A stretch of DNA of 64,000 nucleotides, from positions 1-64,000 of the forward strand of contig CANJQU010000012.1 in NCBI GenBank assembly GCA_947476485.1, in the 5' to 3' direction. The translations under genes and the position numbers were made by a program. The stretch's first letter is position 1, and each line of letters opens with the position of its first letter. The notes under the pieces were generated by a model, which ran no database searches, had not been told where the DNA came from, and saw only the letters and a list, made by a program, of their open reading frames with translations. Source of the stretch: Chitinophagaceae bacterium. Its GTDB lineage: Bacteria > Bacteroidota > Bacteroidia > Chitinophagales > Chitinophagaceae. This document shows, one piece after another, positions 16,275 through 57,407 of the stretch.

Positions 16275-16512
16275 AAGCGCTGAAAGCGCGAAATACATAA
16301 GCCCGGGGCATCGCCCTGGGTTAATTATTTATGGAAACCGCTCCACGCCCTGAAGGGGCGAAATACCACGCAACACCTCCCCTCCTTTTCAAGGAGGGGC
16401 ATGGCAAAAGACATAGCGAAGCAATGTACTTTTGGCTGGGGTGGTTACCTCGCGCTATGACTACGCAGCTCATTCCACCTCACCCTCTCCTTCGGAGAGG
16501 GCCGGGGAGAGG
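16275..16512. repeat. Mosaic of short palindromic intergenic repeats
   Basis: gcgctgaaagcgcgaaatacataagcccggggcatcgccctggg; cgccctgaaggggcgaaata; cccctccttttcaaggagggg; ccctctccttcggagaggg. Confidence 0.7.
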
Positions 16513-16976: not shown

Positions 16977-18035
16977 TTAAGCGATCGTCACCGACCCATC
17001 AAGATAAACATCCTGTATAGTATTCAGCAGCGCCACGCCTTCGCCCATAGGCTTCTGGAACGCCTTGCGGCCGCTTATCAGTCCCATACCGCCGGCGCGC
17101 TTGTTCACCACCGCTGTGGTCACTGCTTCTGCCAGGTCGGTAGCGCCTTTCGACTCACCGCCCGAGTTGATCAATCCCACACGGCCCATGTAGCAATTAG
17201 CCACCTGGTAACGGCACAGGTCTATCGGGTGATCTGTGGTCAGCTTGTCATAAACGATCTTGCTCGTTTTGCCAAAGTTGATGGCATTGTAGCCGCCATT
17301 GTTGGTAGGCAATTTCTGCTTTATGATGTCTGCCTGTATCGTCACACCCAGGTGATTGGCCTGGCCAGTGAGGTCGGCAGCAGTGTGGTAGTCCACACCA
17401 TCTTTCTTAAAGCCGCTGTTGCGCAGGTAGCACCACAATACGGTAGCCATCCCCAGCTCATGCGCATATTCAAACGCCTTGGCCACCTCTACTATCTGGC
17501 GAGCGCTCTCGTCGCTGCCAAAATAGATCGTAGCGCCCACCGCTACAGCGCCCATGTTCCATGCATCCTTTATGTTGCCAAACATGATCTGGTCAAACTT
17601 ATTAGGATACGTAAGGAATTCGTTATGGTTCACCTTTACGATGAACGGTATTTTGTGTGCATACTTCCTGGCCACTGCGCCCAGCACGCCATAGGTCGAT
17701 GCCACTGCATTACAGCCGCCCTCTATAGCCAGCTTCACTATATTCTCCGGGTCAAAATAAATGGGGTTTGGAGCGAAAGATGCGCCGCCGCTATGCTCTA
17801 TACCCTGGTCCACCGGCAGTATCGATACATAACCGCTGCCTGCCAGCCTGCCATGGTTCATCAGCGTGCCTATGCTACGCAGCGTCTGCACATTACGGTT
17901 GCTCTGGGTCCAGTTGTCATCCAGGTGACTCGGAGAAGGCAGGTGCAGTGCCGACTTATCAATGGTTTTGCTAGTATGCCCTAAATAATACTCGGCCTTA
18001 TCGCCCAATAACTCATGAATTTTGTTTGCTGACAT
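16977..18035 (-). CDS. fbaB: Class I fructose-bisphosphate aldolase (DhnA/FbaB type)
   Basis: [45 protein letters not shown] and [12 protein letters not shown]. Confidence 0.93.
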
Positions 18036-18548: not shown

Positions 18549-18580
18549 TATCACAGGAATATCACAAGAATATCACACGG
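18549..18580. repeat. 11-bp-period direct repeat (tatcacaNNaa x3)
   Basis: tatcacaggaa tatcacaagaa tatcacacgg; extra tatcacag at 18479-18486. Confidence 0.7.
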
Positions 18581-19787: not shown

Positions 19788-20220
19788 GTTGGATAGGGAT
19801 AATTGATATTTGAGCACAGTTGTTTGAGATAGCGACTGTGCTTTTTTATTTTAACTGTGGATTGAAAATTCCAAACCATAGCATTCGGATTGCAAATCCG
19901 AAAGAGCGAGGTGGATTTAGGCGCACAACCGCAATCTGGAAATTGCTTTCCATTAGAGCGTAGTCGGAGACATACTGCGCACAATACAATTTTAAGCAAC
20001 TTTCCCTCCCCGATCCCCTTGATGCTCAATCAAAACCCCCGAATTAAAAATCGCAAAACTGAGCAATAATACCTAATAAGTATTATGTGCGTTTGCCACA
20101 GCGACCGCCAAACACAATGCCCGGCGGCGCTCAGCAATGACGTTCGGGCTGCTGCACTTTTTCCCAATTTCCCATCTTAAAACTATCTTTGTATATTACA
20201 TAGTAAACAACAATTGTAAT

Positions 20221-22617
20221 ATGCCGTTAACTGCCAATATATCTAAGTCTGCGAGGTTATCATTTGAAGAGTTTAAACAGGGGGTGCTGGATGACTACCG
20301 TATAGTGGTGGCGAGTCGTGAAGCGAGCCTTATAGGCCGCCGCGAGGTGCTGACAGGCAAGGCTAAGTTTGGCATTTTCGGGGATGGTAAAGAACTGGCG
20401 CAACTGGCTGCGGCAAAGTGTTTCAAGCCGGGCGACATACGCAGCGGCTACTACCGCGACCAGACGCTGATGTTTGCCACGGGCATGAGCGATATACAGA
20501 AGTTTTTCGCACAGCTCTATGCCGATATGAGTACGGAGAATGAGCCGTCATCGGCCGGGCGCATGATGAACGGCCACTACAGCACCCGCTGGCTGGATGA
20601 GCATGGCGACTGGAAAGACCTTACCACAGCGCCGCAAAGCAGCAGCGATATATCGCCCACGGCAGGGCAGATGGTGCGCGCGCTGGGCCTGGCCTATGCG
20701 TCGAAGCTATATCGCAATATAGAGACTCTGCAAACGGGTTTTGAGAAATTCACCGATAAGGGCAATGAAGTTATCTTCTGCACCATAGGCGATGCATCGA
20801 CATCGGAAGGGTTGTTTTGGGAGAGCGTGAATGCGGCGGGTGTGCTGCAGGTGCCGCTGGCGATATTCGTGTGGGACGATGGCTATGGTATATCGGTGCC
20901 GCGTAAGTACCAAACCACCAAGAACTCCATATCAGACGCACTTGCAGGTATGCAGTGGGACGATAAGAAGGGCGGCATAAACATATACACCGTAAAGGGC
21001 TGGGATTATGCCAGCCTTGTAGATACCATACAGGACGGCATCAACCGCGTGCGCGAAACGCAGATACCTGCTATATTCCATGTGCAGGAGGTGACGCAGC
21101 CACAGGGGCACTCCACATCGGGATCGCATGAGCGCTACAAGAGCAAGGAGCGGCTGGAGTGGGAGAAGGAGTGGGACTGCGTGGCCAAGATGCGCGAGTT
21201 TGTGCTGGACAACAAAATAGCTACTGAAGAAGAGATAGCGGCGATAGAAGAAGCGTCGCGGCAGGAAGCGCGCAGCGCCAAGCAGCGTGCGTGGGAGAAT
21301 TTCCTGGCGCCGATAAGGGAGCAGATAACACAGGCTACGCAGCTATGCAACCAGGCGGTGTACGAGGCAGGCAACAATGGCACAGCAATAGCAGCCATAG
21401 TGCAGGAGCTGAACGGTCTGAAAGAGCCGGTGCGCAAGGATGTGATGCAGTCGGTAAGCAAGGTGCTGCGCCTGACCCCGCATGGTGGCGAGGCTAAAAG
21501 AGCGCTCAGCAATTTCTATAAATACATAGCCGAAGATAACCGTGAGAAATTCTCATCGCACCTGCACTCTGAGAGCCGGCACAATGCTATGAAGGTGGCG
21601 GAGATACCGGCACAGTACAGCGCAGATTCGCAGACGCTGAATGGTTATGAGATACTAAATAAATTCTTTGACCACACCTTTGCCACCAACCCCGCAGTGG
21701 TGGCCTTTGGTGAGGACCTAGGCAAGATAGGAGACGTGAACCAGGGGTTTGCGGGCTTGCAGGATAAGTACGGATCGCTAAGGATAACCGATACCGGCAT
21801 CAGGGAGGCGACCATCATAGGGCAGGGTATTGGCCTTGCGATGCGTGGTCTGCGGCCCATAACAGAGATACAATACCTGGACTACCTGCTGTATGCGCTG
21901 CAGCCGCTGAGCGATGATGTGGCTACGCTGCAGTATCGCACACGTGGTGGGCAGAAGTGTCCTATAATAGTGCGCACCCGCGGTCACAGGCTGGAAGGTG
22001 TGTGGCACAGCGGATCGCCGATGGGTATGATCATCAACGCCATCAGGGGTATTTACCTCTGTGTGCCCCGCAATATGACGCAGGCGGCAGGCATGTATAA
22101 CACCCTGCTGAAAAGCGATGAGCCCGGACTGGTGATAGAGTGCCTGAACGGCTACCGGCTGAAGGAAAAGATGCCGGACAACCTGGCTACGTTTAACGTG
22201 CCCTTCGGTATACCAGAAGTGGTGCGCGAGGGAACTGATGTGACCATAGTATCCTACGGATCTACCCTGAGGGTGATAGATGATGCGATAAATACTTACT
22301 TAGCCCCTGAGGGAATAAGCTGCGAGGTGATAGATGTGCGCACCTTGCTGCCGTTTGATATCAATCATATGATCGTGGAGTCGCTGAAGAAGACGAACAG
22401 GATCGTGTTTATAGATGAGGATGTGCCGGGTGGTGCCAGCGCCTATATGTTCCAGCAGGTGATGGAGAAACAAGGTGGTTTCAGGTGGCTGGACGTGGCC
22501 CCAAGGACGATCACTGCGCAGGCACACAGGCCGGCATATGCTACCGATGGGGATTATTTCTCTAAGCCGAATGCTGAGGATATAGCGGCTGTGATCGGGG
22601 ATATGATGCGGGAGTAA
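20221..22617 (+). CDS. Fused alpha/beta E1 component of a 2-oxoacid dehydrogenase (branched-chain/pyruvate type)
   Basis: N-half ThDP motif GDASTSEGLFWESVNAAGVLQVPLAIFVWDDGYGIS; C-half FGEDLGKIGDVNQGFAGLQDKYG...TDTGIREATIIGQGIG. ATG 20221 lies downstream of TATCTTTG (20184-20191). Confidence 0.93.
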   Translation: MPLTANISKSARLSFEEFKQGVLDDYRIVVASREASLIGRREVLTGKAKFGIFGDGKELAQLAAAKCFKPGDIRSGYYRDQTLMFATGMSDIQKFFAQLYADMSTENEPSSAGRMMNGHYSTRWLDEHGDWKDLTTAPQSSSDISPTAGQMVRALGLAYASKLYRNIETLQTGFEKFTDKGNEVIFCTIGDASTSEGLFWESVNAAGVLQVPLAIFVWDDGYGISVPRKYQTTKNSISDALAGMQWDDKKGGINIYTVKGWDYASLVDTIQDGINRVRETQIPAIFHVQEVTQPQGHSTSGSHERYKSKERLEWEKEWDCVAKMREFVLDNKIATEEEIAAIEEASRQEARSAKQRAWENFLAPIREQITQATQLCNQAVYEAGNNGTAIAAIVQELNGLKEPVRKDVMQSVSKVLRLTPHGGEAKRALSNFYKYIAEDNREKFSSHLHSESRHNAMKVAEIPAQYSADSQTLNGYEILNKFFDHTFATNPAVVAFGEDLGKIGDVNQGFAGLQDKYGSLRITDTGIREATIIGQGIGLAMRGLRPITEIQYLDYLLYALQPLSDDVATLQYRTRGGQKCPIIVRTRGHRLEGVWHSGSPMGMIINAIRGIYLCVPRNMTQAAGMYNTLLKSDEPGLVIECLNGYRLKEKMPDNLATFNVPFGIPEVVREGTDVTIVSYGSTLRVIDDAINTYLAPEGISCEVIDVRTLLPFDINHMIVESLKKTNRIVFIDEDVPGGASAYMFQQVMEKQGGFRWLDVAPRTITAQAHRPAYATDGDYFSKPNAEDIAAVIGDMMRE

Positions 22618-22725: not shown

Positions 22726-22757
22726 AAAAAAAAATCCCGCCTGGAGGCCAGTGCGGG
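22726..22757 (-). terminator. Rho-independent terminator for the small-peptide triplet
   Basis: Minus strand CCCGC-A-CTGG-CCT-CCAG-GCGGG followed by A-T9; located 64 bp past the stop of copy A. Confidence 0.75.
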
Positions 22758-22820
22758 TAAGTTGGGTTGCCAATAAGGAGCAGTTACATATAGTTATCAA
22801 GTCGTTTTATCGGTTAGTAA

Positions 22821-22931
22821 TTAATGTGAAAATTGTAACGTGAATGCGCCTGGTGTTTGCTTTGCAGCAGTAGCTTGTCTCTTCTTCATATAGAGAACGA
22901 TGAACCGGGTAATGAATAAAATTGTTAGCAT
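22821..22931 (-). CDS. Small peptide copy A of tandem triplet (36 aa)
   Basis: MLTILFITRFIVLYMKKRQATAAKQTPGAFTLQFSH*; homologous to copies B and C at exact 139-bp period. Confidence 0.75.
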   Translation of the reverse strand: MLTILFITRFIVLYMKKRQATAAKQTPGAFTLQFSH

Positions 22932-22959
22932 AACATTAGTTTTAGACATTAATTAATAA

Positions 22960-23070
22960 TTATTTTACATATTGTAACGTGTATTTATCCGGGGCAATTT
23001 TGGCGGCAATGGCTTGTCTTTTCCTGATATATAATAGAATGTAACGTGTGAGAATTGCGATCGTTATCAT
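22960..23070 (-). CDS. Small peptide copy B of tandem triplet (36 aa)
   Basis: MITIAILTRYILLYIRKRQAIAAKIAPDKYTLQYVK*; homologous to A and C. Confidence 0.8.
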   Translation of the reverse strand: MITIAILTRYILLYIRKRQAIAAKIAPDKYTLQYVK

Positions 23071-23098
23071 AACATTAGTTTTTAGTTTCGGTTAATGA

Positions 23099-23209
23099 TT
23101 ATTTTGTATAATGTAGCGTGTAAGTAGCAGGAGCGAGTTTTGCAGCATTTGCTTGCCTCTTCTTGTTGTAGAGGATGATGAAGCGGGTGATGATTGCGAT
23201 CGTTATCAT
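23099..23209 (-). CDS. Small peptide copy C of tandem triplet (36 aa)
   Basis: MITIAIITRFIILYNKKRQANAAKLAPATYTLHYTK*; versus copy B, 14 synonymous and 11 non-synonymous codon differences by hand count. Confidence 0.8.
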   Translation of the reverse strand: MITIAIITRFIILYNKKRQANAAKLAPATYTLHYTK

Positions 23210-23444
23210 AACATTTGTTTTAGGGGTGTGAGATGATTTTGTTTAGGTATTTTTTATGTCTTTATTTTTTTGGCACGTTATTTGAATTTGTTATTTTGTG
23301 GTTATTGGTTTGTTGTTCGTTTGTTAATGTAAAGGTAAATAGATTTTTTCGACATTCACAACTTATTAACCAAATATTTTTAAATATTTTTATTGCGCTT
23401 CTATTATTTTAATTATATGATAACCATTTTAGCCTGTTGAACTG

Positions 23445-24542
23445 ATGAAGAAAATAGGCATAGACGAGTTTCTGCAGCTCGCTAAAAGTTTCCCGATAAT
23501 AGATGTGAGAAGTCCCGGAGAGTATTGTCACGCGCACATTCCGGGAGGTTACAACATTCCGCTTTTTTCTGATGAAGAGCGCAAAATAGTGGGCACTATC
23601 TACAAACATCAGGGGAGGGAAGATGCAATAAAAATCGGGTTAGATTTTTTCGGAGTGAAAATGAAAAATATCGTGATAGAAGGTGAAAAAATCTCTGAAA
23701 ATCACAATTCATTAACAAGTGGTAGTAAAGAATCTGGAGAGATAAGCGGCAAAACGCTGCTAGTGCACTGCTGGCGTGGAGGTATGCGTAGCGCAGGCGT
23801 TGCGTGGCTGCTGGACCTGTACGGTTTCAACGTTTATGCGTTAAATGGTGGCTATAAAGCATATAGAAACTGGGTGTTACAGCAGTTTGAACGGTCATTC
23901 TCTTTTAAGATGCTGGGTGGATATACGGGTTCGGGGAAGACAGGGGTGCTTAAGGAGCTTGCAAAAAGCGGGCTGCCGGTAATTGACCTGGAAGGTATGG
24001 CACATCATAAAGGCTCGGCATTTGGGGCGTTAGGAGAATATCCGCAGCCGACCCAGGAAATGTTTGAGAACGAACTGGCCGCCAAGTTATATGAAGTATC
24101 TGAGGGCGCAACTCACGCTGAAATATGGCTGGAGGATGAAAGCCGGCGGATAGGGTCTGTAAATATACCGGGTGCATTGTGGGCGAGCATGAGAGTTGCG
24201 CCTTTGTATTTTTTAGATGTGCCGTTTGAGGAACGCCTGGACTATATTGTAGTGCAATATGGGAAATTTGAAAAGCAAGATTTATTGAACGCTATTACGC
24301 GCATACAAAAGAGGCTCGGCGGGCAGGGAGCTAAGGATGCGATGCGATATTTGAATGAAGGTGATGTGCGGGAGTGTTTCAGGATATTGCTGTGCTACTA
24401 CGATAAATTTTACTCTAAGGACATTGAGAACAGGGAGCAGGCCGAAGAGCCGGGTATGTCGCTAACTTCGGTATTTGCCATGAAGAAAATTATTTGTACA
24501 ACTGTGGATGCTGTGGGGAACAGCAGGCCACTAAAGGATTAG
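23445..24542 (+). CDS. mnmH/selU: tRNA 2-selenouridine synthase
   Basis: Rhodanese N-domain (IDVRSPGEYCHAHIPGGYNIPLFSDEER; LLVHCWRGGMRSAGVAWLLD) and P-loop GYTGSGKT. Confidence 0.95.
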   Translation: MKKIGIDEFLQLAKSFPIIDVRSPGEYCHAHIPGGYNIPLFSDEERKIVGTIYKHQGREDAIKIGLDFFGVKMKNIVIEGEKISENHNSLTSGSKESGEISGKTLLVHCWRGGMRSAGVAWLLDLYGFNVYALNGGYKAYRNWVLQQFERSFSFKMLGGYTGSGKTGVLKELAKSGLPVIDLEGMAHHKGSAFGALGEYPQPTQEMFENELAAKLYEVSEGATHAEIWLEDESRRIGSVNIPGALWASMRVAPLYFLDVPFEERLDYIVVQYGKFEKQDLLNAITRIQKRLGGQGAKDAMRYLNEGDVRECFRILLCYYDKFYSKDIENREQAEEPGMSLTSVFAMKKIICTTVDAVGNSRPLKD

Positions 24543-24554
24543 AAATACTGTATC

Positions 24555-25622
24555 ATGGAATTAGAGAACAGTGAGATAAAGCTGACCCAGTATTCCCGTG
24601 GGGCGGGTTGTGGTTGCAAGATAGCGCCGGCAACGCTGGAGGAAATATTGAAGACAGAAGTTGCCCAGCCGCTGGATAGCACGTTGCTGGTGGGCAATAG
24701 TACGAACGATGATGCCGCAGCCTATGACCTGGGCGATGGCATGGCGCTGATATCTACTACCGACTTTTTTATGCCGATCGTTGATGATGCGTATGATTTC
24801 GGGCGGATAGCGGCTGCAAATGCGATAAGCGATGTTTATGCGATGGGTGGCAGACCGATAATGGCTGTTGCAATACTGGGTTGGCCGGTTGAGAAGCTGC
24901 CGGTGGCATTGGCGCAGCGGGTGCTGGAGGGTGCGAGGGCAATTTGTGCAGAAGCAGGCATACCGTTAGCGGGAGGGCATAGTATAGACAGCGCTGAGCC
25001 GATGTTCGGGCTGGCGGTGAATGGACTTTGCGCGATCGCTAATCTGAAGAGGAACAGCACTGCAAAAGAAGGTGATCTTTTATTTCTCACGAAGCCATTG
25101 GGTAGCGGCATATTGGCAACGGCGCAGAAAAGAGGTGTACTTAAAGAAGAACACAGAATAGCGCTGATAGAGCAACTGACGCGAATAAATAAACTGGGGG
25201 AAGCGCTTGGCAGGATCAAAGGTGTAACGGCGATGACAGATGTGACCGGGTTTGGACTGGCGGGGCATCTGATAGAAATGGCGGAAGGTGCAGGTTTGTC
25301 TGCAGAGGTCTACTATTCGCAGCTACCGGTAATGGAAGGCGTGAAGGAATACCTGGCTCAAAGAATAGTCCCGGATGCTACATACCGCAACTGGAATGGA
25401 TATAGCAGCAAGATATTTTTTGATGCGGGGGTTGATGTGATGGAGGCGTTTAGTTTGCTGCCTGATCCGCAGACGAATGGCGGATTGCTTGTGGCTGTAA
25501 GTGAGGATGCGAAAGAGGAGCTGGTTGGACTGCTCGCTGAGCATAACTTTCTTTCATCGTTCCTTTTGCCGGTTGGCAGGATGGTGAAGCGCGAAGAGAA
25601 AGTGATTTTGGTTAAGAAATAG
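24555..25622 (+). CDS. selD: Selenide, water dikinase
   Basis: GAGCGCKI active-site motif (Cys form), NDDAAAYDLGDGMALISTTDFFMPIVDDAYDFGRIAAANAISDVYAMGG. Confidence 0.97.
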   Translation: MELENSEIKLTQYSRGAGCGCKIAPATLEEILKTEVAQPLDSTLLVGNSTNDDAAAYDLGDGMALISTTDFFMPIVDDAYDFGRIAAANAISDVYAMGGRPIMAVAILGWPVEKLPVALAQRVLEGARAICAEAGIPLAGGHSIDSAEPMFGLAVNGLCAIANLKRNSTAKEGDLLFLTKPLGSGILATAQKRGVLKEEHRIALIEQLTRINKLGEALGRIKGVTAMTDVTGFGLAGHLIEMAEGAGLSAEVYYSQLPVMEGVKEYLAQRIVPDATYRNWNGYSSKIFFDAGVDVMEAFSLLPDPQTNGGLLVAVSEDAKEELVGLLAEHNFLSSFLLPVGRMVKREEKVILVKK

Positions 25623-57370: not shown

Positions 57371-57407
57371 TTTTTAGTAGATAGTAATTAGTAGATAGTA
57401 TATAGAT

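Follow-up and report, generated by a model that had tools for sequence, protein, structure and literature searches.

A tandem small-protein array and its regulatory signals

Our analyses of a 64,000-nucleotide stretch of a Chitinophagaceae genome (hereafter the window) have identified, in a seemingly empty gap between two enzyme genes, an array of small open reading frames (smORFs) which, judged by comparison with related genomes, are real but unannotated-looking small-protein genes. The gap is bounded on one side by a gene for a fused dehydrogenase E1 alpha/beta protein of the 2-oxoacid dehydrogenase type (20137–22617, plus strand; Pfam E1_dh, Transket_pyr, and Transketolase_C), which is convergent with the array, and on the other by the divergent gene for the tRNA 2-selenouridine synthase MnmH/SelU (23445–24542, plus strand), after which lies SelD (24555–25622); both of the latter are NCBIfam equivalog matches above cutoff. 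The array consists of three minus-strand ORFs of 37 codons including the stop, each encoding a 36 aa peptide, viz. copy 1 (23099–23209; MITIAIITRFIILYNKKRQANAAKLAPATYTLHYTK), copy 2 (22960–23070; MITIAILTRYILLYIRKRQAIAAKIAPDKYTLQYVK), and copy 3 (22821–22931; MLTILFITRFIVLYMKKRQATAAKQTPGAFTLQFSH), with a start-to-start period of 139 bp and spacers of 28 bp. The coordinates, lengths, period, spacers, and peptide letters given for these ORFs in a first-pass annotation of the window were all exact, and the 139-bp tandem array is also detected by TRF. Copy 1 belongs to a type (A) with relatives in genomes G001, G004, and G020, copy 2 is type A-like and present in the window genome only, and copy 3 represents a second type (B) present in all 7 of the homologous loci described below. 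A further in-frame ATG upstream of copy 3 makes a 42 aa reading possible; the homologues support the start codon of the 36 aa form. Elsewhere in the window, an Acido-Lenti-1 RNA (RF01687) was matched by Rfam at 16276–16320 (minus strand; score 45.5 bits, cutoff 37), here in a Bacteroidota genome; the match lies a short way downstream of the gene for a class I fructose-bisphosphate aldolase (16977–18035, minus strand). Two short tandem repeats, with units of 14 and 11 bp, are located at 57374–57400 and 18549–18577, respectively.

A predicted promoter of the Bacteroidota type lies upstream of the array (23330–23361, minus strand). The promoter box claimed earlier was found at 23330–23337 as TACCTTTA (−7), with a TTG (−33) 21 bp upstream of it, an arrangement close to the sigma-ABfr consensus (PMC7366714). 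A TTG-N19-21-TAnnTTT[G/A] site is present upstream in 6 of the 7 homologous loci, against a chance expectation of 0.2–0.5 such sites per locus on the array strand in shuffled sequence, and in G013 the box is perfect (TACATTTG). Between the presumed transcription start and the first ATG extends an A/C-rich leader of about 114 nt (23210–23323, minus strand), which is unstructured (MFE −1.96 kcal/mol, z 0.23) and holds a conserved block, AACAAATTCAAAWAACGTGCCAAA (23269–23292), as well as CACCCCTAAAA ahead of the first ATG; the 24-nt block occurs once in the genome. The leader of the window is ~80% identical to those of G001, G004, and G020, whereas third codon positions in the core of the smORFs are 35–65% identical in the same pairs. 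In 6 of the 7 loci, the motif CACCCCTAA / TTACCCC lies ahead of the first smORF (23220–23235, minus strand, in the window), G033 having AACCC only; it is possibly a binding site. Past the last copy, an intrinsic terminator (22726–22757, minus strand; CCCGC-A-CTGG-CCT-CCAG-GCGGG and then a T run) folds as strongly as had been claimed (−15.1 kcal/mol, z −2.9); this hairpin was missed by a generic terminator scanner and recovered by folding, and its stem is kept in G001, G004, G020, and G013, with one change at the stem ends in G004. Promoter and terminator are both conserved, and the earlier proposal of an operon is supported in that the array appears to form one transcription unit. Inverted repeats near the start codons were dropped as candidate features because they are not conserved in G004.

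Distribution and coding signature of the smORF family

A search with copy 2 alone against 61 genomes, followed by a search with a 13-member profile against 35 genomes of the genus, has identified 13 clear smORF copies in 7 of these 35 genomes, with 1–3 intact copies per genome. The profile E-values of the 13 copies range from 1e-12 to 1e-18, but the profile was built from these same copies, and the independent evidence comes from the search with copy 2 alone and from the locus being shared. In all 7 genomes the array is adjoined by the homologous dehydrogenase E1 gene in convergent orientation; mnmH/selU is found on the other side in the window genome, G004, G001, G020, and G013, a different reading frame occupies the far side in G033, and in G006 the contig ends there. 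That the same short protein is kept at the same place in seven related Bacteroidota indicates that the smORFs are a real small-protein gene.

Outside the genus, the sets searched comprised 296 family genomes (including a few genus members), 398 order genomes, and 395 phylum genomes, and yielded matches at chance level only; non-self matches with E ≤ 0.01 number 4 in the order set and 1 in the phylum set, as expected by chance. Weak matches elsewhere (E 0.002–1) were rejected, those that could be read being pieces of other frames or matches due to chance. No relative turned up in about 1,000 other Bacteroidota genomes, nor in the viral contigs, phages, and plasmids searched; Pfam, NCBIfam, and PHROGs gave no significant profile match (best E-values 0.04–0.34, for single members only), PADLOC and the PDB gave no match to the peptides, and our literature search found no paper on the family. 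In 13 array-free relatives, the sequence downstream of the dehydrogenase gene showed no diverged copy. On the genomes compared, the smORF family is restricted to a single group inside a Chitinophagaceae-type genus, and it is new, although proteins of its kind, viz. tandem small hydrophobic proteins, are already known. Bacteroidota small proteins are ill covered by existing catalogues, and this family is absent from every family library searched.

The substitutions separating the copies bear the signature of protein-coding sequence. Between copies 1 and 2, our recount gives 14 codon changes that are synonymous and 11 that are not, as reported earlier, and for the three pairs of window copies the amino acid identity exceeds that obtained when the substitutions are shuffled among positions (P = 0.001, 0.0095, and 0.002), 63–74% of these shuffles introducing a stop. 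Over codons 2–18 of the 13 copies, entropy averages 0.67 bits at codon position 1, 0.26 at position 2, and 1.19 at position 3, and in orthologous pairs position 2 is 88–100% and position 3 is 35–76% identical. The residues M1, T3, I4, R9, and Y14 are invariant in all 13 copies, no copy contains a frameshift or early stop, and tail lengths differ by whole codons. Pooled pN/pS is about 0.33, most pairs having a dS close to saturation. These comparisons mark the smORFs as coding genes under purifying selection. Selection on the protein sequence had been proposed in the first-pass annotation, which named a homologue search, a frame check, and a dN/dS test; all three outcomes favour genes, the proposal being borne out by homologues with intact frames, by the pN/pS value, and by the nearly frozen second codon position.

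Two explanations that dispense with functional peptides can be weighed against this signature. An inert tandem repeat, open by chance, would account for the existence of the 139-bp repeat, but it is refuted by frame and protein being conserved in all 7 genomes and by the frequency with which shuffled substitutions give stops, and we attach practically no probability to it. That the transcript acts as an RNA, the ORFs being incidental or tuning only its stability, is favoured by the leader and 3′ region being more conserved than third codon positions, and some sRNAs need no structure; however, the clear coding signature and intact frames, the lack of a stable fold in the whole predicted transcript (z 0.0), and an Rfam search of the locus that returned nothing up to E = 5 make this explanation very improbable.

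Evolutionary history and copy number

In a tree of the dehydrogenase, the seven array genomes cluster together (weak support, 0.57), with no array-free genome inside the cluster. A single gain of the array is the simplest, though unproven, reading of this weakly supported group, and vertical inheritance, with no sign of mobility, is the best reading of the distribution. Ten sister genomes have dehydrogenase stop and selU start codons that share one base (TAATG), which ties a metabolic enzyme gene closely to a tRNA-selenation gene; these are G007, G014, G017, G009, G010, G002, G034, G021, G029, and G018 (loci L078, L082, L100, L102, L103, L087, L088, L089, L093, and L099, respectively). The dehydrogenase tree places the genomes with this overlap next to the array group. 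As the overlap in the sister genomes leaves no intergenic DNA for comparison, a gene born in place and one inserted there are indistinguishable.

The smORF tree splits types A and B at 98% bootstrap, with both upstream copies of the window in type A, and the single-copy genomes G006 and G033 carry type B only. The two copies of G013 pair as closest relatives of each other (69%, pS 0.25). The A/B split together with this pairing implies that duplication has occurred at least twice independently, and repeated local tandem duplication is the best reading of how the copies arose. At the G013 locus (L006, 1459–1761) the independently duplicated unit, of 195 bp, includes the smORF's own upstream stretch, both copies being preceded by CATTACCCCA.

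It is conceivable, though we would put it at somewhat below even chances, that the gene was newly born in, or dropped into, the gap after the dehydrogenase gene in the ancestor of the group, was favoured by selection as a membrane micropeptide, and later multiplied at least twice independently. If this is true, the loci, with 1, 2, and 3 copies and two subtypes, would offer a graded set in which the growth of a young small-protein family can be followed. The single locus, narrow range, stepwise copy numbers, and sister genomes with the gene overlap make the family a compact case for studying the origin of young small-protein genes and the reasons for their multiplication.

Peptide properties, proposed function, and comparison with known systems

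AlphaFold2 predicts a single helix over residues 3–25 of the peptides (pLDDT 88 and then 82 over the first 20 residues). Residues 2–15 are strongly hydrophobic and are followed by basic residues, KKR, net charge being +5 to +7. With moderate confidence we favour the interpretation that the array is a vertically inherited small-protein operon with a sigma-ABfr-type promoter, whose single-helix cationic peptides would be membrane-associated and regulator-like. The promoter would give rise to a transcript of ~0.6 kb comprising the long, unstructured, conserved leader, 1–3 tandem smORFs, and the intrinsic terminator, and each smORF would be translated into a cationic one-helix peptide of 32–38 aa, made up of a 14-residue hydrophobic N-terminus with the invariant Arg9 and Tyr14, a basic patch, and a variable tail. 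The peptides are probably located at or within the inner membrane, as modelled from these features: the hydrophobic helix may insert shallowly into the inner leaflet of the cytoplasmic membrane, with the basic patch holding it at the inner surface, where the peptide could bind or tune either the membrane itself or a protein in it. That an Arg and a Tyr are invariant within the hydrophobic part speaks for a specific contact, whether with a protein partner or within an assembly of peptides, and against non-specific lysis. Retention in every group member and repeated duplication suggest that dosage or A/B pairing is beneficial; duplication may have raised dosage and yielded subtypes A and B, which may work together. 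Counting against this membrane model, the hydrophobic stretch of ~14 residues contains the conserved Arg9, is short relative to the ~20 residues of a spanning helix, and is not clearly amphipathic, the helical hydrophobic moment being below the shuffled median in 13 of 13 peptides (3rd–40th percentile of shuffled peptides); no partner gene was identified. Of the earlier suggestion of a membrane-active or membrane-anchored micropeptide, the small cationic peptide with a hydrophobic N-terminus stands, the membrane location and any activity being putative.

In the psm-alpha operon of phenol-soluble modulins, several short paralogous peptides without a signal peptide are encoded on one transcript. 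The array is alike in these respects, and its tandem short paralogues, which lack a signal peptide and form a cationic helix, could likewise be secreted and act extracellularly. However, the amphipathicity of the array peptides does not exceed that of shuffled controls, the flanking genes are metabolic or serve tRNA modification and include no exporter, and the psm-alpha peptides belong to a different phylum and show no sequence relation to the array; secretion is accordingly quite improbable.

Small single-helix membrane proteins of the CydX, KdpF, and MgtS type tune larger membrane proteins. The array peptides are similar to them in size, in their one helix, in being under purifying selection, and in their chromosomal, vertical inheritance, but differ in not being encoded with a known membrane partner, in their tandem copies, and in their shorter hydrophobic part.

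A likeness to the type I toxins Ldr and Ibs had also been noted in the first-pass annotation. With Ldr, Ibs, and Zor the array shares chromosomal tandem paralogues of similar size, with a hydrophobic helix followed by cationic residues, and peptides of <60 aa with such a helix and a cationic C-terminal part are common features of these toxins; ZorO itself was found through a search for tandemly duplicated small hydrophobic proteins (PMC8309996). The array might on this basis encode self-toxic, membrane-depolarising peptides repressed by a putative RNA via the long conserved leader, which might serve as the target of a trans-acting RNA. Several observations make this unlikely. No antisense promoter occurs at a shared position across the loci, their number being near or below chance; the unstructured leader is not self-sequestering, lacking the translation-blocking structure that is common, though not universal, in type I toxin mRNAs; and no near-complementary copy of its 24-nt block was found elsewhere in the genome, though the leader may pair with a trans-acting RNA over a short stretch. 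The array is kept in 7 of 7 group genomes at one site without sign of mobility, its copies appear to lie on one transcript with one promoter rather than in separate toxin/antitoxin units, and the invariant R9 and Y14 and the specific codon constraint suggest a specific contact. The array further differs from Ldr, Ibs, and Zor in its short hydrophobic stretch with a central Arg and in having no sequence relation to them. The analogy is weakened to one of peptide shape only, neither a conserved antisense promoter, nor a structured leader, nor mobility having been found.

Lineage-restricted small intergenic genes have been described in other bacteria, e.g., E. coli O157:H7 (PMC5597208), and resemble the smORFs in being unannotated, short, and intergenic. 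The array differs in displaying purifying selection, regulatory signals, and repeated duplication that are discernible from sequence alone.
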